The notes beneath the pieces are model-generated. The model made no database searches and had not been told where the DNA came from. It saw nothing but the letters and a program-made list of their open reading frames with translations. This document shows, piece after piece, positions 41,764 to 49,613 of a DNA stretch of 64,000 bases. The stretch lies in assembly GCF_029871245.1 (NCBI RefSeq), contig NZ_SSON01000030.1, positions 1 through 64,000 of the forward strand, in the 5' to 3' direction. Each line of letters opens with the position of its first letter. The stretch's first letter is position 1. Source of the DNA: Pseudomonas sp. BN102 (GTDB taxonomy: Bacteria > Pseudomonadota > Gammaproteobacteria > Pseudomonadales > Pseudomonadaceae). Both the position numbers and the translations under genes were made by a program.

Positions 41764-42774
41764 ATGAACCAGTTCCATTCCCCAACGACTACCAGCCCCG
41801 GCTTCCAGCCTGCCTGGTGGCTCCCCAGCCCCCACCTGCAGACCCTCTGGTCGCCCTTCTGCCGCAAGCCGCTCCATCTGGAGCGGCGCCGCGAGCGCCT
41901 GTGGCTGGATGATGGCGACTTCCTCGACCTGGACTGGCACGGCCCCCACGAGGCCAGCGCGCCGCTGGTGCTGGTCCTGCACGGCCTCACCGGCTCCTCC
42001 AATTCGCTGTACGTCGTCGGTCTGCAGCAGGAATTGGCGGCCCGCGGCTGGGCCAGTGTGGCCATCAACTGGCGCGGCTGCTCCGGAGAACCCAACCTGT
42101 TGCCGCGCGGCTACCACTCCGGCGTCAGCGAAGACCTGGCGACCACTGTCCGCCACCTGCGCACCAGTCGCCCGCTGGCGCCGCTCTATGCGGTGGGTTA
42201 TTCGCTGGGGGGCAATGTGCTGCTCAAGTACCTGGGCGAGACCGGCGACGACAGCGGCCTCGAAGCAGCGGTGGCGGTCTCGGTGCCCTATCGGCTGGAC
42301 CAGTGCGCTGACCGCATCGCCCTCGGCTTTTCACGGGTCTACCAGGCGCATTTCATGCGCGAAATGGTCGCCTACGTGAAGGGCAAGCAGCGGCTGTTCG
42401 AACATCAGGGCCATGCGGAGCACCTGTCCACCCTGGCGAGCCTGGGCTCACTGGACGGCCTGCGCACCTTCTGGGACTTCGACGGCCGCATCACCGCTCC
42501 CCTGCACGGTTTCAGCGATGCCCAGGACTACTACCGGCGCGCCTCCAGCCGCTACTACCTGGGCGGCATCCGCATTCCCACCCTGCTGATCCAGGCCGCC
42601 GACGACCCCTTCGTCTTCCGCAACAGCCTGCCGGAAGCCCACGAACTCTCGGCCAGCACGCGCATGGAGTTGCATGGACAGGGCGGCCACGTGGGCTTCG
42701 TCGAAGGATCACCGCAAAAACCCGCCTACTACCTGGAGCGGCGGATTCCGGGCTGGCTGGCGAGCGGCCGCTAG
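41764..42774 (+). CDS. YheT-family alpha/beta hydrolase
   Basis: This 336-residue hydrolase of the AB-hydrolase YheT/EMB8 type begins with family-like FQPAWWLPSPHLQTLWSPFC. The oxyanion motif LVLHGLTGSSNSLY, the nucleophile elbow AVGYSLGGNVLLKY, a late Asp in QAADDPFVF and His in GQGGHVGFV complete a Ser-Asp-His triad. Substrate unknown; YheT relatives are putative carboxylesterases. It lies 15 bases after rsmD and is convergent with the exopolysaccharide-type operon (20-base gap). Confidence 0.88.
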   Translation: MNQFHSPTTTSPGFQPAWWLPSPHLQTLWSPFCRKPLHLERRRERLWLDDGDFLDLDWHGPHEASAPLVLVLHGLTGSSNSLYVVGLQQELAARGWASVAINWRGCSGEPNLLPRGYHSGVSEDLATTVRHLRTSRPLAPLYAVGYSLGGNVLLKYLGETGDDSGLEAAVAVSVPYRLDQCADRIALGFSRVYQAHFMREMVAYVKGKQRLFEHQGHAEHLSTLASLGSLDGLRTFWDFDGRITAPLHGFSDAQDYYRRASSRYYLGGIRIPTLLIQAADDPFVFRNSLPEAHELSASTRMELHGQGGHVGFVEGSPQKPAYYLERRIPGWLASGR

Positions 42775-42794: not shown

Positions 42795-43832
42795 TCACTC
42801 CTCGACAGCCCAGCGATCGAGCCAGCCCCAGCGGTGCGGGAAGCGCGCCTTGAGGCCCAGGCGATCCACGCGCCAGAACGCCGGCCATTCGCCCCGGACC
42901 CGCGCCAGCAGGCGCAGGTTGCGGCTCGGAGCGCTGAAGGCCTCGCGCAGTTCCACCGGTACGGGGACGGCGTCCTCCACCATGCGCACCACCTCCGCCG
43001 ACAACCAGGTGCCATCCGGCAGGCGCAGCCGAAAGGGCTGACCGGGCGAGGCGTAGGCGGCATGGCGCGGATCGAGGTAGACCCAGAGCTCGGCATCGCC
43101 CAGGCGCTGCAGCCGCATGAGCGGAGTGCCGGGGCCGACGTTCTCGCCCTCACCCACCAGCACCTCGCTGATCACCCCCGCCTCGCCCGCCTTCAGCTCC
43201 ATGCCCTGCAGACGCGCCTGCAGCCAGCCGCTTTCCAGCCGGCGCTGGCGCTCCAGGGTGGCGTCCGCCGGCAGCGATTCGCGGCGCTCGAATTCCAGCA
43301 GGTCGCGCTGGCGCCTGTCCCGCTCGTCCTGGGCCTGCTGCACCTCGCCGCGGGTGGCGGCGCCGGCGGCGAGCAGCCCGCGCAGGCTGCCCAGGCGGGA
43401 TTCGGCACTGTCCAGCAGGCGCTGGACGGCGTGACGCTCCCGTTCCCGCATCCCCGGCTGCACGGCGGATGACGGCAGGGTCGACGGTTCGGCGAGCAAG
43501 GCAAGGCGCGCGCGCCATTCGGGGTTGTCCATCCGCAGGAGCAACTGACCGACTTCCACCCGATCGCCGGGTCGGCCCAACACACGCTCCACCTGCCCGG
43601 CCTCCCGCGCGCGCAGTTCGCTGGAGGGCAGATGCAACTGGGCCGGTGCCTCGATCAGCCAGAGGCCGAAGAACTCACGGCCGACCAGGAACAGCAACGG
43701 GCTGGTCACTGCCAGCAGGATCAGGTACCAGCGCAGCTTGAAGGCCAGGCGCTTGCCCGGCGCATAGAGCACCTTGAGGCCCTGGTCCTGGGTCGGCTGC
43801 TGCTCCTTGGAGCTGGAGAATCGAATCTTCAT
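42795..43832 (-). CDS. HlyD-type periplasmic adaptor (MxdC-like)
   Basis: This 345-residue membrane fusion protein has a cytoplasmic N-terminus and one transmembrane helix at about 33-52 (LRWYLILLAVTSPLLFLVGR). The periplasmic part has a split lipoyl/barrel-sandwich domain (AREAGQVERVLGRPGDRVEV ... AGEAGVISEVLVGEGENVGP), a helical hairpin and a beta-barrel. It is the last gene of a four-gene operon, eight bases after the channel gene. No ABC or RND pump is near, so it probably links the operon's glycosyltransferase to the outer-membrane channel, as the Alg44 periplasmic domain does in alginate export. Upstream frame extension is rejected. Confidence 0.86.
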   Translation of the reverse strand: MKIRFSSSKEQQPTQDQGLKVLYAPGKRLAFKLRWYLILLAVTSPLLFLVGREFFGLWLIEAPAQLHLPSSELRAREAGQVERVLGRPGDRVEVGQLLLRMDNPEWRARLALLAEPSTLPSSAVQPGMRERERHAVQRLLDSAESRLGSLRGLLAAGAATRGEVQQAQDERDRRQRDLLEFERRESLPADATLERQRRLESGWLQARLQGMELKAGEAGVISEVLVGEGENVGPGTPLMRLQRLGDAELWVYLDPRHAAYASPGQPFRLRLPDGTWLSAEVVRMVEDAVPVPVELREAFSAPSRNLRLLARVRGEWPAFWRVDRLGLKARFPHRWGWLDRWAVEE

Positions 43833-43840
43833 GGGATGGC

Positions 43841-45925
43841 TCAACGGGGAAAATGGGTCCAGTCCTGCCAGTCGACACCGGCGACGCCGACCGCCTGCAG
43901 GCGGGTGCGCCAGCGCTCCAGCTGCTGCCGCAACCCTGCGCGCGACACCCCGGCCCAGGACTCCGCGGCCGGCAGCTGCGGCTCGACGCTCTGCGCCAGG
44001 CGGAAGCGCAGCGCCGGCCAGCGCCGGGCGATGGACTCCGCCAGCTCGGCGCTGCGTGCAGGATCGCGGGTATAGATCATCAGGCTGACCTGTCGCACGC
44101 CGCGCTGCGGCAGGGCGCATGGCACGCAGGTAGTGCCGGCGACGGGTTCGGCGAACCAGCGGTGATGGCTGGACAGTTCCAGCGGCCAGGGCGCGCGCCC
44201 GGCCACGGCGCCCAGGGTATCTAGCCAGTCCCGCAGGCGGCTGTCGGGCACCGGCCAGCCAAGTTGCTCGACTTCCAGGTCTAGGTGCAGGGCGTCGAAG
44301 CGCAGGCCCTGGAGCCGATCGATCAGGTCCAGCAGGCCTTGGCGACCGGCGGGCTCCAGCCAGTCCGGATCGCCCAGCAGCAGGACCACCTGCAGGCCCT
44401 GGGCGTGGGCTTCGTCCAGAGTGTCCTGCAGCTGCTTGCGCAGAGCAGGGAGGTCGGCCACCTGCCGGGAATCGAGCCCCAGGTAGAGCCGCGCCATGCC
44501 GGCACGGCGCAACTCATCCAGCTCGACGCGGCGGTTGTCCGGCTGCAACAGCGCCCGGCTGTTCCACAGGTAGACGCCCTGGTTCCAGGCCGTCGACCTG
44601 CCCCCCTTCGGCTCCGCCTCGCTCAGCGCCAGGGCCGGCCAGTCGACACGCTGCGGACCGAGCAGCTCGGACAGCGTCTGGTCGTCATCGACGAACAAGC
44701 GCAGCGCCGCCTCGCGCAACCAGGCGGCGTGCCAGGCGGCGATCAGGCGCAATCCCGTGTTGTAGTGCTCCAGCTCCACGGCCTGCTCCTCACCCGGATT
44801 CTCGGAAACCGAGCGTTCGGCGCGCAGCCGCTGCTCACGCAGGGCCTGCTCCGAAACGGCGAGCTGCTCGCGCTCCCGATCCAGCTGGGCAGCGGCCTGG
44901 CGCTGCGCCTGCAGGGTCTGGCCCAGGGACTGGAGCAGTTGCTGACGCTCGGCCTCCAGTTGCGCCAGGGCGGCCTGGTGTCGCGCCTCGCCCTCGCGGT
45001 CGCGGGCCTGGCCGTAAGCCAACAGGTCGAATGGTGCGGAAAGGCTGAGGCTGGCCACCAGTCCGTCGCCGCGCTTGCTGGCACCGCTGCGGTCCTCGTA
45101 GCTCTGCGCCAGGCTGAAGCTGGAATCAACGCTCGCATACCAGGGCGATTGCCGGTTGCCTTCTGCCTGGCGCACGTCGTCCTGCCGCTCCTGCAGACGC
45201 GGATGACCTTCCAGGGCCTGGCGCCAACTGGCCAGGGGCAGCACCTGGGCGGACAGCGGTTCCGCCTGCGCCCGTTGGCCAGGCGCGATTTCCAGGCCGG
45301 CCAGTCCGGCCAGTCCGGCGCGGGTGTCCTCCACCAGCAGCGCGCTCTGCCCGCAGCGACGCTGCAGGCCCTGCCACCGGCCGTCCAGCAGCCGCGCCTG
45401 GGACGCCAGCAGCCAGCCCTCGCGCTGGCGCAGGTCCAGGCGGTCGCGGGCAGCGGCCGCGGTGGGCAGCAGCGTCTCGCACCAGCGCGCCTCCTGCTCG
45501 GCGCGCCACCAGTCAGCATAGGCGCTGCGCAGGGCCAGCCGCTGCTCGGCCAGGCGCAGCAAGCGGCGGGCCTGTTGCCGTTGCTGCTCAAGCTCGATCG
45601 CGGACACCGCCTGCACCTGCCGGCGCAGGCTGCCAAGCAGGGGGTGGCGCAGGCCGAGGGCCAGATCGCGGCCGTAGTAGTCATCGCGCAGGTCATCGGT
45701 CACCAGTTCGCGGTAGCGCCCGGTACTGCCCGCACCGAACCATTGCCAGCCCGCCTCGGCCTCGCGCTGCTCCTTGAGCGCATCCAGCGCCCGCAGTTCG
45801 GCGGCGTTGGCCTGCAGCGCGGCACCGTCCTCGGCACGCTCCAGGATCCTGTCCAGTGGCAGCACCTCGGCCCGGACCACGCCGGCGGCCAGCAGCAATG
45901 CGCAGAAAAGCACGGAACGGATCAT
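43841..45925 (-). CDS. Outer-membrane TolC-like channel fused to a glycosidase-like barrel
   Basis: This 694-residue two-part protein has a signal peptide at 1-19 (MIRSVLFCALLLAAGVVRA). Residues ~20-420 are long Gln/Glu/Arg-rich helices with short strands. Two repeats of the outer-membrane efflux type are recognisable, with LALGLRHPLLGSLRRQVQAV and VASLSLSAPFDLLAYGQARD at the strand/helix junctions. Residues ~427-694 are unlike TolC and read as a beta/alpha barrel: NQGVYLWNSRALL, MARLYLGLD, LQVVLLLGDPDWL, FDALHLDLEVEQL (D549, E551), PLELSSHHRWF and GVDWQDW. This suggests a glycoside-hydrolase-like domain. It lies four bases after the glycosyltransferase gene. The start at MIRSV is set by the signal peptide. 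Confidence 0.78.
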   Translation of the reverse strand: MIRSVLFCALLLAAGVVRAEVLPLDRILERAEDGAALQANAAELRALDALKEQREAEAGWQWFGAGSTGRYRELVTDDLRDDYYGRDLALGLRHPLLGSLRRQVQAVSAIELEQQRQQARRLLRLAEQRLALRSAYADWWRAEQEARWCETLLPTAAAARDRLDLRQREGWLLASQARLLDGRWQGLQRRCGQSALLVEDTRAGLAGLAGLEIAPGQRAQAEPLSAQVLPLASWRQALEGHPRLQERQDDVRQAEGNRQSPWYASVDSSFSLAQSYEDRSGASKRGDGLVASLSLSAPFDLLAYGQARDREGEARHQAALAQLEAERQQLLQSLGQTLQAQRQAAAQLDREREQLAVSEQALREQRLRAERSVSENPGEEQAVELEHYNTGLRLIAAWHAAWLREAALRLFVDDDQTLSELLGPQRVDWPALALSEAEPKGGRSTAWNQGVYLWNSRALLQPDNRRVELDELRRAGMARLYLGLDSRQVADLPALRKQLQDTLDEAHAQGLQVVLLLGDPDWLEPAGRQGLLDLIDRLQGLRFDALHLDLEVEQLGWPVPDSRLRDWLDTLGAVAGRAPWPLELSSHHRWFAEPVAGTTCVPCALPQRGVRQVSLMIYTRDPARSAELAESIARRWPALRFRLAQSVEPQLPAAESWAGVSRAGLRQQLERWRTRLQAVGVAGVDWQDWTHFPR

Positions 45926-45929
45926 GGCT

Positions 45930-47258
45930 TCAGAACCTCTTCGCCCTGCGCAGGACCCACCAGGGCGCCATGCTGGTTTCCTCGTGGCCGCGGCGCAGGG
46001 CCTCGTTGAGCATGGCCACCGCACTCCACAGGCGCATGACCAGCATGAACAGGGGAAAGACGAAGACCACCGGGAACAGACGCAGGTCCTGGCGCGGGCG
46101 CTCTGACACCAGGGCCAGCATGGCCAGGTACAGCAGCAGCGTCATGCCCAGGTAGACCAGGTAGATGAGCGCCGCCAGGGCAAGGAAGCGCGGCCAGGGC
46201 AGCACCAGAGGCCCTGCTACGCAGTAGCCGAAGATGATGAAAGGCAGCACCAGTTGGAAAAAGAAGCCGGTGACCAGGGTCATCAGGAAGTTCGGCCAGC
46301 CCAGCAGGCGCGGATTGAAGCTGTGGCGATGCTTGCGGATATAGAGGAAGTACAGGTCGCCGTCCCAGCGCAGCCGCTGCATGAGGAACTGGAGGAAGGT
46401 CACGGGGGCGTCGGTATGGCCGATGGCGCCGGGCTCGAAGGGAATGCGCAGGGCCTGGCGGCCGAAGTAGTTCTTGATCCGCAGGGTGAGGTCGAGGTCT
46501 TCCGCGGTGTGGGTGTCCCAGCCACCGATCTTGTCGAGGAAGCTGCGGCGAAAGGCGCCGAAGGCCCCGGACACGTTGTTCACCAGGTTCCATTCGCTGA
46601 GGCCGATCTTGGACATGTGGATCGACAGCTGGTATTCCAGCGCCTGCATGGCGGTGGTCAGCGAGGCCCAGGCGTTGCGCACCCGAAGGCTGCCCGCCAC
46701 CGCCGGCACGTCCGGATCGGCGAAGTGACGAACCATCCGGCTGACCATGTCGTTGTCGAAGGAGGTGTCGCCATCCAGGGCCATCACCACCTCACCGGTG
46801 CAGTGCGCCAGGCCCGCGTTCAGCGACGAGACCCGGCCGCCGCGCTGCCACTTGGCGATGGGCCGCAACAGGCGCCTCGGATGGAGCAGCGGGTCGACGC
46901 GAAAGTCCCGCACCGCCTGCATGGTCGGCCGGTTCACGGCCGCGCCGTCGACCACCGGGATCATCTCGATGTAGCCGGGGTAGGTCTGCTCGCAGAGGCT
47001 GCGCAGGGTCTGCTGCACGTCGCGCCCTTCGCTGTAGCAAGTGATGATGCAGGACACCCGCGGGCGATAGCCGTTGTCCCGCGGCAGCTCGAAGGGTTTG
47101 CGCATGAACCAGCGCAGCACACCGATCAGTACCAGCAGGTTCAGCGGCACCTCCAGCAGCAGGAAGGCCGGCAGCAGCTTGAACGCCCCTTGCAGGAAGC
47201 TTTCGCTCCTGCCCAGTTCGCCGACCAGCAACAGCCACTGCTCGAAGAATGCTTCCAT
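45930..47258 (-). CDS. Processive family 2 glycosyltransferase, polysaccharide synthase (MxdB-like)
   Basis: This 442-residue inner-membrane GT2 enzyme has an N-terminal membrane helix at about 28-50. The cytoplasmic GT-A domain follows, with IITCYSEGRDV, VVDGA (D104), DxD motif LDGD (162-164), the catalytic TAED (251-254) and the processivity motif QRLRW (294-298). Three or more C-terminal helices (about 325-352, 358-385, 395-415) could form a translocation channel. The pattern matches hyaluronan, cellulose and PNAG synthases rather than single-addition enzymes. Sugar specificity cannot be read. It is the second gene of the operon, with 9- and 4-base gaps to its neighbours. Confidence 0.9.
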   Translation of the reverse strand: MEAFFEQWLLLVGELGRSESFLQGAFKLLPAFLLLEVPLNLLVLIGVLRWFMRKPFELPRDNGYRPRVSCIITCYSEGRDVQQTLRSLCEQTYPGYIEMIPVVDGAAVNRPTMQAVRDFRVDPLLHPRRLLRPIAKWQRGGRVSSLNAGLAHCTGEVVMALDGDTSFDNDMVSRMVRHFADPDVPAVAGSLRVRNAWASLTTAMQALEYQLSIHMSKIGLSEWNLVNNVSGAFGAFRRSFLDKIGGWDTHTAEDLDLTLRIKNYFGRQALRIPFEPGAIGHTDAPVTFLQFLMQRLRWDGDLYFLYIRKHRHSFNPRLLGWPNFLMTLVTGFFFQLVLPFIIFGYCVAGPLVLPWPRFLALAALIYLVYLGMTLLLYLAMLALVSERPRQDLRLFPVVFVFPLFMLVMRLWSAVAMLNEALRRGHEETSMAPWWVLRRAKRF

Positions 47259-47267
47259 GCTCGATGC

Positions 47268-48662
47268 TCAGCTCAGTTGTCCGCCCAGGCGCGCCAGCAG
47301 CAGGGCGGCATCCTCCTGATCCTGCTGATCGTCCGGGGCGGTGAAGACGGCCAGCCGCACCTCGATGGGCGTCGCCTGCCCCGCGGTCAGGCTCTCGGCA
47401 CCCTTGACCAGGCGCTTGCGCACTACCTCCAGTCCGACGGCATCGGTGTAGGGCATCATCAGCCAGAGCACCTCCTCGCTCAGCCGGCAGCAGCGGTCGG
47501 TCTCGCGGACGGCTTCCTGCAGGCGCTCCACCAACCCGTCCACTAGCGCGTGGCCACGCATCTCGCCGAGCTGGGCGAGAGTCTCCAGCAGGTTGACGAA
47601 GCGCAGACCGATCAGGGAGAAGGGCGGCGTCGGGTGCCGCCGGGTCAGTTGCAGCTGCCAGTTGAGGAGCTCGAAGAAGGCCTTGCGCGGCAACAGGTTG
47701 AGGCTGCCGAAACGCTCGATGCTCGTCGGCCCGGCGCCGAAGCCCTCACGGCAGCGCAGGCGCCCGGCTTCAGCCAGACGGAAGTGGCGTACCTCGCGCA
47801 CGCGCAGCTTGTCCGGCGCATGGGACAGGCCGCAATCCAGGCAGCGTGCTTCCACCGCGGCGTCGACGAAGAACGCCTGGCAACTGCGGCAACGGTAGTT
47901 CTCCAGGGGCCGGTCGTAGTCGCTGCCGATGTGGCGCAGGCGGGTCAGGCAGTTCGGGCAGAGCAGCAGGCCTTCCTTGAGGAAGTGCTCCTGGGGGCCG
48001 ACGTGGCCGCAGGTGAAGCAGTGCAGCGAGGGCTGACGGCCGATGTCCAGGGCCTGGCACTCGGGGCAGACATCCACATAGTTGAGGCGCCCCGACCCGC
48101 AGCCGGTGCACAAGCGCAGCCGGTCCAGCAGCTCGCCCTCCTCCAGCCACCCTTGCTGGCCCATCAGCTGCAGCCAGGAGAACTGGTTGACGACTTCGCC
48201 ATCCCCCAGGGCCTCCAGCAGCGGGTAGCGGTAGTGCTGCGGCACGGTGGCATCGCGCACGGCGTGGACCTCGCCACGGGAACGCAGCCAGAGCCAGGCC
48301 AGCACCCGCTCCTCGAAGCGCTCCGGCACGGTGCCGCGATTGAACAGGCCGAAGCGTTCGCGCCAGAGACGCCAGAGCGGCGTGATGGCACCGAGGTCGG
48401 CCGGGGGCCGGCCATCCCCCAGGGCAGCGCACCAGGGTTCCTGGTCATGGCAGCAATAGATCAGGCTGAAGCGGTAGTGGCGATCCATGCGCAAGCTGCG
48501 CAGCATCTGGCCAGCCGTGGGGCCCGGGAGGTCGAGCAGCAGCACATCGTAGGCCGGCGCCGCCTGCAGGCTGGCAAGATCGCTGTAGTGATCCAGTTCA
48601 CTGCCGCCGAAATGGGAAGGAACGGCGCCGAGAACTGCGACATGGGGCGCGGCTGTAGTCAT
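47268..48662 (-). CDS. Zinc-ribbon and degenerate GGDEF-like regulator (MxdA-like)
   Basis: This is the first gene of the operon, 464 residues with three recognisable parts. Residues 1-~100 are receiver-like (HVAVLGAVPSHF, DVLLLDLPGP) but lack a clear acidic pocket. Residues 185-277 carry six CxxC pairs (185/188, 199/202, 215/218, 235/238, 258/261, 274/277), enough for three zinc ribbons, resembling the TackOD1 output domain. Residues ~320-464 follow GGDEF topology (LPRKAFFELLNWQLQ ... LWLMMPYTD), but the signature reads RLSEEV instead of GGDEF, so cyclase activity is unlikely. It may sense c-di-GMP or another nucleotide and gate the synthase. No strong Shine-Dalgarno is seen. Confidence 0.82.
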   Translation of the reverse strand: MTTAAPHVAVLGAVPSHFGGSELDHYSDLASLQAAPAYDVLLLDLPGPTAGQMLRSLRMDRHYRFSLIYCCHDQEPWCAALGDGRPPADLGAITPLWRLWRERFGLFNRGTVPERFEERVLAWLWLRSRGEVHAVRDATVPQHYRYPLLEALGDGEVVNQFSWLQLMGQQGWLEEGELLDRLRLCTGCGSGRLNYVDVCPECQALDIGRQPSLHCFTCGHVGPQEHFLKEGLLLCPNCLTRLRHIGSDYDRPLENYRCRSCQAFFVDAAVEARCLDCGLSHAPDKLRVREVRHFRLAEAGRLRCREGFGAGPTSIERFGSLNLLPRKAFFELLNWQLQLTRRHPTPPFSLIGLRFVNLLETLAQLGEMRGHALVDGLVERLQEAVRETDRCCRLSEEVLWLMMPYTDAVGLEVVRKRLVKGAESLTAGQATPIEVRLAVFTAPDDQQDQEDAALLLARLGGQLS

Positions 48663-48716
48663 GGGAAAAAGCTCTGGAAGTCATCCTTAACCAATGTGCC
48701 ACTATAACGCAGAGGA

Positions 48717-48782
48717 ATTATATTTACGTCAGTTATTCGACACGCTCGCGTCAAGGCGTAATCGTCAAAAGGCTAATGTCAA
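48717..48782 (-). promoter_or_regulatory. AT-rich promoter region of the exopolysaccharide operon with TTGAC direct repeats
   Basis: The 116-base gap ahead of the zinc-ribbon gene is the most AT-rich stretch in the neighbourhood. Read leftward it has TTGAC three times at exactly 14-base spacing (starting at 48782, 48768 and 48754). A consensus TATAAT follows at 48722-48717, about 55 bases before the ATG. No -35 hexamer sits 17 bases from that TATAAT, so an activator binding the direct repeats may be required. The first repeat overlaps the stop codon of the TetR gene. Confidence 0.55.
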
Positions 48783-49468
48783 ATATCCGGCGCCCGGTCG
48801 TCTTCGCCGTGCATTATCCGCTCCAGCGGCACGTGAAGCTTCTCGTAGAGCGCCTGCACGCCCGGCTGCGCCTCGGGCGCGAGGTAGCCGCCCTCCAGCG
48901 CGAGTACCTGGTAGATGCCGCGGCGAAGCAGCTCCTGGCTGAGGTCGCCGGCCTCCGGGCGGGTGGTGCAAAGGAAGCGCACCCATGAAGTGACGATGAT
49001 CCAGCTGTTGAGGGTCAGGGCTTCGACCTGGGCGGCGTTCATTCGCAGGATGCCGGCCTCGACGAAGCCGCGGTAGATGGCCTGGGCGTGGTCCAGGCAG
49101 CGCTGGGCGAACAGGCGGTAGCGCGCGGCCAGTTGGGTGTCGGACTCCAGCAGGTGCTCCAGGTCGCGATGCAGGAAGCGGAAATCCCACATCGCCGCCA
49201 GCAGGGACTCCAGGTAGAAGGTCTTGTCCTCCACCGTCACCGCGCGCCCCTCCGGCGGGCGCAGGAAGCTGTCCACCCGGGTTTCGTACTGGCCGAACAG
49301 CTCGGCGATGATCTCCTGCTTGTTGCGGAAGTGGTAATAGAGATTGCCCGGCGACATGCCCAGGTGCGCGGCGATGTGGTTGGTGGTCACGTTGCGCTCG
49401 CCCTGGGTATTGAACAGCGCAAGGCTCTCCAGAACGATGCGGTCGCGGGTCTTGGGTCGTTGGGCCAT
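48779..49468 (-). CDS. TetR/AcrR family transcriptional regulator
   Basis: This 229-residue regulator has an N-terminal helix-turn-helix domain: MAQRPKTRDRIVLESLALFN, then NVTTNHIAAHLGMSPGNLYYHFRNKQEII shortened here to its key words HIAAHLGMSPGNLYYHF. The C-terminal ligand domain is helical. The start at MAQRP is chosen because the 14 upstream residues are not TetR-like. It is divergent from the aldehyde dehydrogenase gene, with a palindromic operator candidate in between, so it most likely represses that cassette. It is also just upstream of the exopolysaccharide operon on the same strand, so read-through between them is possible. Confidence 0.9.
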   Translation of the reverse strand: MAQRPKTRDRIVLESLALFNTQGERNVTTNHIAAHLGMSPGNLYYHFRNKQEIIAELFGQYETRVDSFLRPPEGRAVTVEDKTFYLESLLAAMWDFRFLHRDLEHLLESDTQLAARYRLFAQRCLDHAQAIYRGFVEAGILRMNAAQVEALTLNSWIIVTSWVRFLCTTRPEAGDLSQELLRRGIYQVLALEGGYLAPEAQPGVQALYEKLHVPLERIMHGEDDRAPDI

Positions 49469-49613
49469 CGAGTGGATCTTCCTGCAATCGGTAGGTACGG
49501 CGAGCGCCAAAGGTACACACCGGGAGGGCGCCGGGAAACACTCGGCGTTACCCGCAGGCTCCCTGCCCAGCTTTTCGTTGGGCTGCCGCCGGGCGGCCGG
49601 GCAGGCAAGCTAT

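Follow-up and report, generated by a model that had tools for sequence, protein, structure and literature searches.

A four-gene operon lies in the 64,000-nucleotide stretch of Pseudomonas sp. BN102 DNA analyzed here (contig NZ_SSON01000030.1, positions 1 to 64,000; below, the window), and it probably makes and exports a surface polysaccharide on the command of cyclic di-GMP (c-di-GMP), with export via a HlyD-type adaptor and a TolC-type channel and trimming by a barrel domain borne on that channel. Sequence comparison indicates that the operon is a sister variant of the Mxd system of Shewanella, with its own outer-membrane exit, and not mxdABCD itself. This reading is backed here by the genes, their homology and motifs, their co-occurrence and their phylogeny. 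The four open reading frames (ORFs), in the order A-B-C-D, are all on the minus strand and are separated by gaps of 9, 4 and 8 bases in the ORF reading of the window, in agreement with an earlier note, made from the sequence alone, that had described four same-strand genes with gaps of 4-9 bases. The genes and their parts (lengths in amino acids, aa) are as follows.

47268..48662, minus strand: gene A, MxdA-like regulator, TackOD1 zinc ribbon and degenerate GGDEF, 464 aa
47775..48326, minus strand: TackOD1 domain of gene A (PF18551, 8e-64; 11 Cys and His214 conserved)
47496..47507, minus strand: RETD, the RxxD inhibitory-site (I-site) motif of the GGDEF-like domain of gene A, R386 and D389
45930..47258, minus strand: gene B, MxdB-like processive-type synthase of glycosyltransferase family 2 (GT2), 442 aa
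46365..46379, minus strand: QRLRW (QxxRW) motif of gene B
43841..45925, minus strand: gene C, hydrophobic signal-like start, TolC-family outer membrane efflux protein (OEP) part fused to a TIM-barrel-like domain, 694 aa
43844..44650, minus strand: TIM-barrel-like domain of gene C, glycosidase-like, residues 426-694
44273..44287, minus strand: HLDLE of gene C, barrel strand 4 in the model; D549 and E551 are candidate catalytic acids
42795..43832, minus strand: gene D, HlyD-type periplasmic adaptor, MxdC-like, 345 aa

Besides TackOD1, gene A has a weak Pfam match to GGDEF (2e-6); the zinc ribbon that the earlier note had placed beside a degenerate GGDEF domain is this named domain. The protein was aligned with its homologs above 270 bits and three plasmid proteins (57 rows), and each of the 11 Cys and His214 of TackOD1 is kept in 56 or 57 of these rows. 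Letters are present in the GGDEF/I-site region in 55 rows; L060 and L103, the latter with a broken A, are fragments without letters at the GGDEF site, and L066 is a broken row. The GGDEF site of the window protein reads SEEVL, and by eye GGDEF is found in none of the 55 rows, while R386 is kept in all 55 and D389 in 54, the sole exception being the broken row L066. Of 31 further homologs (above 250 bits), 29 carry RxxD, the other two have K, and GG[DE]EF occurs in none; in a separate alignment (A2, 35 rows) the GGDEF-like domain has no invariant residues other than R386 and D389. RxxD is the motif of the c-di-GMP I-site, and PelD is a c-di-GMP receptor with a degenerate GGDEF domain in which RxxD is kept. 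Because RxxD is kept while GGDEF is lost, A reads as a c-di-GMP receptor without catalysis, as in PelD, and would be expected to bind the messenger. One locus on viral contigs also matches A and was not used.

Gene B belongs to Pfam GT2, and its hydropathy points to one hydrophobic segment at the N-terminus and about three towards the C-terminus. In 85 aligned rows (above 390 bits, with identical rows kept and the window protein counted twice), identity is complete at both D of DxD, at the D of ED and at Q, R and W of QxxRW, and the E of ED is found in 78. The conservation of these motifs speaks against a plain non-polymerising enzyme, the outcome by which the earlier note would have had its reading refuted. 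The top NCBIfam model is PgaC_IcaA (TIGR03937), with 124.1 bits against a cut-off of 422.3, followed by NodC, also far below its cut-off; the cellulose synthase model TIGR03030 scores 23.5 bits, below its threshold of 699.1. Since the nearest models are so far below cut-off, B is, on these scores, no known NCBIfam equivalog.

The first ~420 aa of gene C match OEP (PF02321; 35.5 bits with a cut-off of 22, 1e-8) in two stretches, the best in the N-terminal half of the protein, while in the C-terminal 269 aa no Pfam family reaches its cut-off. A single-sequence AlphaFold model of this C-terminal domain is of low confidence (pLDDT 58, pTM 0.59) and has the strand/helix alternation of a TIM barrel, with seven strands of at least three residues and a one-residue eighth; strand 4 carries HLDLE and strand 6 MIY, and WQDW is at the place expected for the eighth. 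The Foldseek list for the model was mixed and contained, besides GH18 chitinases, also epimerases, aldolases and lyases; when Foldseek's own matches were re-ranked, nearly all of the 50 shown rows were glycosidases (Z about 12, root-mean-square deviation 4.4 to 5.8, 219-243 residues), mostly GH1 beta-glucosidases, plus Cwp19 and a GH5 enzyme. The GH18 signature consists of DxxDxDxE on strand 4, MxYD on strand 6 and W on strand 8; in the model (pLDDT 58) DALHLDLE and MIYT at strands 4 and 6 are incomplete versions of these motifs, and WQDW is at the eighth. The PDB sequence search with the barrel profile returned only YfiB (E 1), and on viral contigs ten stretches matched the pattern of barrel relatives and none was confirmed. 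Across 56 rows of C, D549 and E551 of HLDLE, W454 and W522 are identical in all. The domain is taken here as a glycosidase-like barrel with no family assigned, since a barrel fold alone says little on function. Of the TolC-like channel with a glycosidase-like barrel that the earlier note had proposed, the channel is recovered by Pfam and the barrel by the low-confidence model.

Gene D matches Pfam HlyD_3 (1e-10). Its hairpin turn reads G-A-A-T in 33 of 39 family rows (the window counted twice) and is mostly different in relatives without C; here and below, family and genus without further qualification are those of the window. Hairpin turns of this type serve in docking to TolC.

The four genes occur together in other genomes, as the earlier note had suggested checking. 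Of 248 family genomes, 48 have C or its barrel; in 38 of these A, B, C or barrel, and D are all present, and the other ten have the barrel or C only. Among the 38, the OEP part and the barrel are in one locus in 35, the barrel stands alone between B and D in two (L107 and L108), and one is split between two contigs (L100, L116). Chance assembly of unrelated genes was rejected because all four co-occur in these 38 genomes and their key residues are conserved. In a tree of 81 B proteins (L117, L066, L122, and identical and short rows were dropped, and some forks and long rows are unsure), the 35 family rows, each with C or the barrel, group in one clade (100/99), and its sister clade of 31 rows without C (98/98) includes Shewanella oneidensis MR-1 and Plesiomonas; seven distant rows, in which C is divergent and the order is C-D-A-B, form a separate clade. 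The presence of C requires three changes on this tree versus a shuffled mean of 27, and none of 500 shuffles was as low, with the proviso that near-copies favour clustering; hence C is lineage-bound and not a random neighbor. In the order that contains Shewanella, B (E <=1e-40) was found in 19 of 325 genomes, 17 of them with the A-B-D and two with the C-D-A-B arrangement; D is present in 16 of the 17 A-B-D loci, and none was seen in L184. In the genus of MR-1 (with G619) the count is 16 of 129 genomes, one of which (G997) is broken.

The mxd locus of MR-1 (L215, genome G988) was recognized by the presence of all five tested mxd primer stretches of PMC3691769; a first match of the primer pattern in a Saprospiraceae metagenome-assembled genome was taken as chance. 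This locus has the gene order A-B-D and ends with MxdD, which is 122 codons long and has no Pfam match. MxdA is a homolog of A (34% identity over 438 aa, E 3e-78), carries TackOD1 (4.7e-71) and has RVTD at the I-site; MxdB is 52% identical to B over 402 aa (E 3e-145), and MxdC is 26% identical to D over 371 aa (E 4e-23). For MxdD, comparison with the window proteins gave nothing better than E 0.3, and the window has gene C in its stead. The likeness to mxdABCD that the earlier note had pointed to holds, then, for A, B and D, the counterparts of MxdA, MxdB and MxdC, and fails for C, which is absent from mxd. In six loci of the genus Shewanella (L215, L216, L218, L219, L221 and L222) the next reading frame after D is a small same-strand ORF of 120-175 codons; at the other loci of that genus no such small ORF is listed, and an MxdD-like gene may not be general. 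Mutants in mxdA and mxdB lose aggregation and form much less biofilm, and mxdB mutants form no three-dimensional biofilm (PMC3691769); MxdA is reported to bind c-di-GMP (PMC11395469).

TackOD1 was named from archaeal response regulators and is reported in thaumarchaeal pilus loci, its function being called obscure (PMC5847659). It was found in 27 of 369 genomes of the class, a set that includes the genome of the window, 19 of them over the cut-off and 17 with a full match (E <1e-50); the other ten genomes have weak or partial matches, two of these over the cut-off, and neighbors were compared for the 17. B is adjacent to full TackOD1 in 16 of the 17 genomes (split in G493), G467 being the exception. 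Conversely, B (E <=1e-40) is present in 15 of the 369 genomes, and 14 of these are among the 17; G363, where the GT2 is in a 1158-codon frame, is the exception for B. In the plasmid collection 16 records match A, and in all 16, one of them archaeal, a glycosyltransferase is close downstream on the same strand, as seen from hit coordinates in 14 and from annotation in two (Roseibium and Halorussus); in Alisedimentitalea and Halorussus one gene stands between the two. Two further plasmid records, of Novosphingobium and Prevotella, have a match to B (about 35% identity) without A. The Halorussus halophilus plasmid (L152:7950-10911) carries TackOD1, DUF2334 and GT2 in a tight run, possibly an archaeal polysaccharide locus. 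The pairing with GT2 offers a functional lead for a domain whose function is called obscure (PMC5847659).

Two alphaproteobacterial proteins annotated as response regulators (L149:7074-8771 and L150:7170-9050) have TackOD1, found by Pfam in L149 and by tblastn in L150, and are also upstream of a glycosyltransferase. In L149 a Pfam receiver domain is beside TackOD1, a possible phospho-signal input.

As a module, the barrel is movable: in ten genomes it turns up in a retrieved stretch that has no A, B or D, alone in eight of them and on an OEP-type protein in two (L101 and L102). In nine of these ten genomes a protein of 621-650 aa adjoins, in which Pfam identified a polysaccharide deacetylase in all three cases tested (L074, L101 and L109); in the tenth, L115, the neighbors have no Pfam match. 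The loci with a barrel and a deacetylase-type neighbor are as follows.

L074:5993-8967: barrel and deacetylase-type neighbor
L101:7146-11236: the same
L102:6978-11057: the same
L109:7475-10530: the same
L110-L114: the same

The barrels of L074 and L109, which belong to different genera, look near-identical, which suggests recent transfer. In L056 the barrel is preceded by AMIN and OEP domains.

From these observations we infer exopolysaccharide synthesis, binding of c-di-GMP by A, contact between A and B, assembly of the export path and activity of the barrel. In the proposed mechanism, c-di-GMP would bind the I-site of A, which would no longer make the messenger, and A would contact B and switch it on via its zinc-ribbon TackOD1 domain. 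B would polymerise an activated sugar and push the chain across the inner membrane in the manner of processive GT2 synthases; because the chain would be extruded by B itself, no ABC, RND or MFS pump would be needed. According to the ORFs of the window and Pfam, no gene for such a pump is located between the flanking genes, though an unlinked pump may yet take part. D would carry the chain over the periplasm to a TolC-type trimer of C, which would conduct it outward. Both ends of TolC-type proteins are periplasmic, and the barrel of C, at the periplasmic side of the channel, could cut or trim the chain. As to the sugar, N-acetylhexosamine is a first guess, with roughly even chances of being right. 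That the product is a polysaccharide is supported by the deacetylase adjoining the barrel or C in nine of the ten genomes without A, B and D, and by the DUF2334-GT2 run after haloarchaeal TackOD1.

Several observations weigh against this reading. The Mxd clade lacks the TolC-barrel gene, so C is not needed by every relative, and synthesis of an Mxd polymer is itself worded as 'putative' or 'probably' in the Mxd literature consulted, where the polymer is not shown. No OEP is detected by Pfam in the C proteins of the tested distant C-D-A-B loci (L059, L063, L068, L192 and L193) or in that of L104 in the family, the last of which does match our own profile of the N-terminal part of C. The barrel model is of low confidence and its family is not settled, no precursor-sugar gene is found in the operon, and the literature search returned no biochemistry for the operon of the window. 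Nor is the pairing of TackOD1 with GT2 universal: G539 has a second, partial TackOD1 copy (L069) with no B beside it; a TackOD1-GGDEF protein without adjoining GT2 is encoded at L055:8624-10015, in G467, with genes for a response regulator and a PhoR-like kinase downstream of it; and TackOD1 without adjoining GT2 is also described in archaeal response regulators (PMC5847659).

Three other explanations were weighed, two of which concern the product and its exit. B could make a short glycan, a glycolipid or a modified lipid carrier, with D and C exporting this small product. In the PDB search with B the best match, 6yv7 (5.6e-20), a family 2 glycosyltransferase that we take to be an archaeal GT2 of the non-polymerising kind, is ahead of hyaluronan synthase (3.4e-9), and no copolymerase such as PgaD is encoded. 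The invariant QxxRW and the rank of PgaC_IcaA and NodC as top NCBIfam matches argue the other way, as does the biofilm phenotype of mxdB mutants in the homologous system (PMC3691769), and we consider a short product quite unlikely. C and D could also be an efflux or type I secretion pair recruited beside A and B, the polymer leaving otherwise. Both families serve efflux, and the Mxd sister clade lacks C, so that its outer-membrane exit must come from elsewhere. Such recruitment is hard to reconcile with the joint occurrence of the four genes in the 38 family genomes, with the D-type gene that accompanies A-B in 16 of 17 loci even where C is absent, and with the lack of an ABC, RND or MFS gene between the flanking genes. 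Moreover, C bears a sugar-enzyme-like barrel, which efflux channels are not known to carry; this explanation appears very improbable.

The third alternative concerns regulation: A may be a protein-interaction hub, for example for CheY, that shifts c-di-GMP levels indirectly and neither binds c-di-GMP nor gates B directly. MxdA is reported to alter c-di-GMP indirectly and to bind CheY3 (PMC3691769, PMC7666153), and a TackOD1 protein with a receiver domain exists elsewhere, in Palleronia; set against this are the reported binding of c-di-GMP by MxdA (PMC11395469) and the full invariance, in alignment A2, of R386 and D389 alone among the residues of the GGDEF-like domain. We regard a pure hub as unlikely and prefer A as a c-di-GMP receptor that would act on B.

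Known systems share parts of this arrangement. The cyanobacterial cellulose system XcsA-XcsB(HlyD)-XcsC(endoglucanase)-TolC likewise combines GT2, HlyD, a TolC exit and a glycanase in a proposed tripartite path; it differs in having PilZ on the synthase and no TackOD1-GGDEF partner, a TolC outside the operon and the glycanase as a separate protein (PMC12430437). Its HlyD-TolC model is described there as not experimentally confirmed, and its genes are not in one operon (PMC12430437). The poly-N-acetylglucosamine (PNAG) system pgaABCD has a processive GT2, the nearest NCBIfam synthase to B, and periplasmic glycosidase and deacetylase activity (PMC5933820), whereas the window operon is without a PgaA-type pore or PgaD and B is far below the PgaC cut-off. 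Pel has in PelD a cytoplasmic c-di-GMP receptor derived from a degenerate GGDEF domain with RxxD, like A; it differs in that its synthase PelF is not a GT2 and its exit is a TPR/beta-barrel pore rather than TolC.

Five synthase-dependent exopolysaccharide systems are counted in PMC7112194, from the main text of which mxd, HlyD and TolC are absent, and our literature search, mainly of open papers with few subscription journals, found no paper on such an operon outside Shewanella. The operon may represent a further class of synthase-dependent exopolysaccharide secretion beyond these five, with a TackOD1-gated GT2, a pump-less HlyD-TolC conduit and a channel-borne glycosidase. The output domain TackOD1 would then act, in most bacterial cases, as a partner dedicated to polysaccharide synthases; we put this forward tentatively, at slightly less than even odds. 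The Mxd literature consulted does not say by what route Mxd-type polymers cross the outer membrane. With synthase, receptor, adaptor and channel in one compact operon, the export model becomes testable, and the operon is a handy case for a poorly understood route.

The operon is flanked by the following features, the names of the two genes being presumptive.

48663..48778, minus strand: 116-base leader, from the TetR-like gene to gene A
48779..49510, minus strand: TetR-family-like regulator gene
41764..42774, plus strand: alpha/beta-hydrolase-like gene, on the other side of the site that is empty in other genomes

A promoter scan found no sigma-70-type site on the minus strand of the leader and a single site on the opposite strand; leaders upstream of A, compared by eye, have no common motif. 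Within the genus the operon is present in five of 18 genomes, always between the TetR and hydrolase genes, and in the other 13 these two genes are adjacent, leaving an empty site (L230-L247 compared). The site is empty in G015, the nearest relative by TetR identity, and G017, a further genome of the genus, has the barrel only. Another A-B-D operon has a GH16-family gene behind it (L058:11971-12882), which is a glycanase of another type, close to the barrel's position.

The complete A-B-C-D set is also carried by pKAM329_3 of Aeromonas caviae, a 29-kb mobilizable plasmid (L155:7998-13820), where it is 95% identical at the DNA level over 5823 bases to L087 from a family genome and 73% identical to the window. 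The presence of a close relative of the operon on a mobilizable plasmid indicates that the trait can move. The plasmid pKAM345_3, of the same length as pKAM329_3, has matches to A, B and C.

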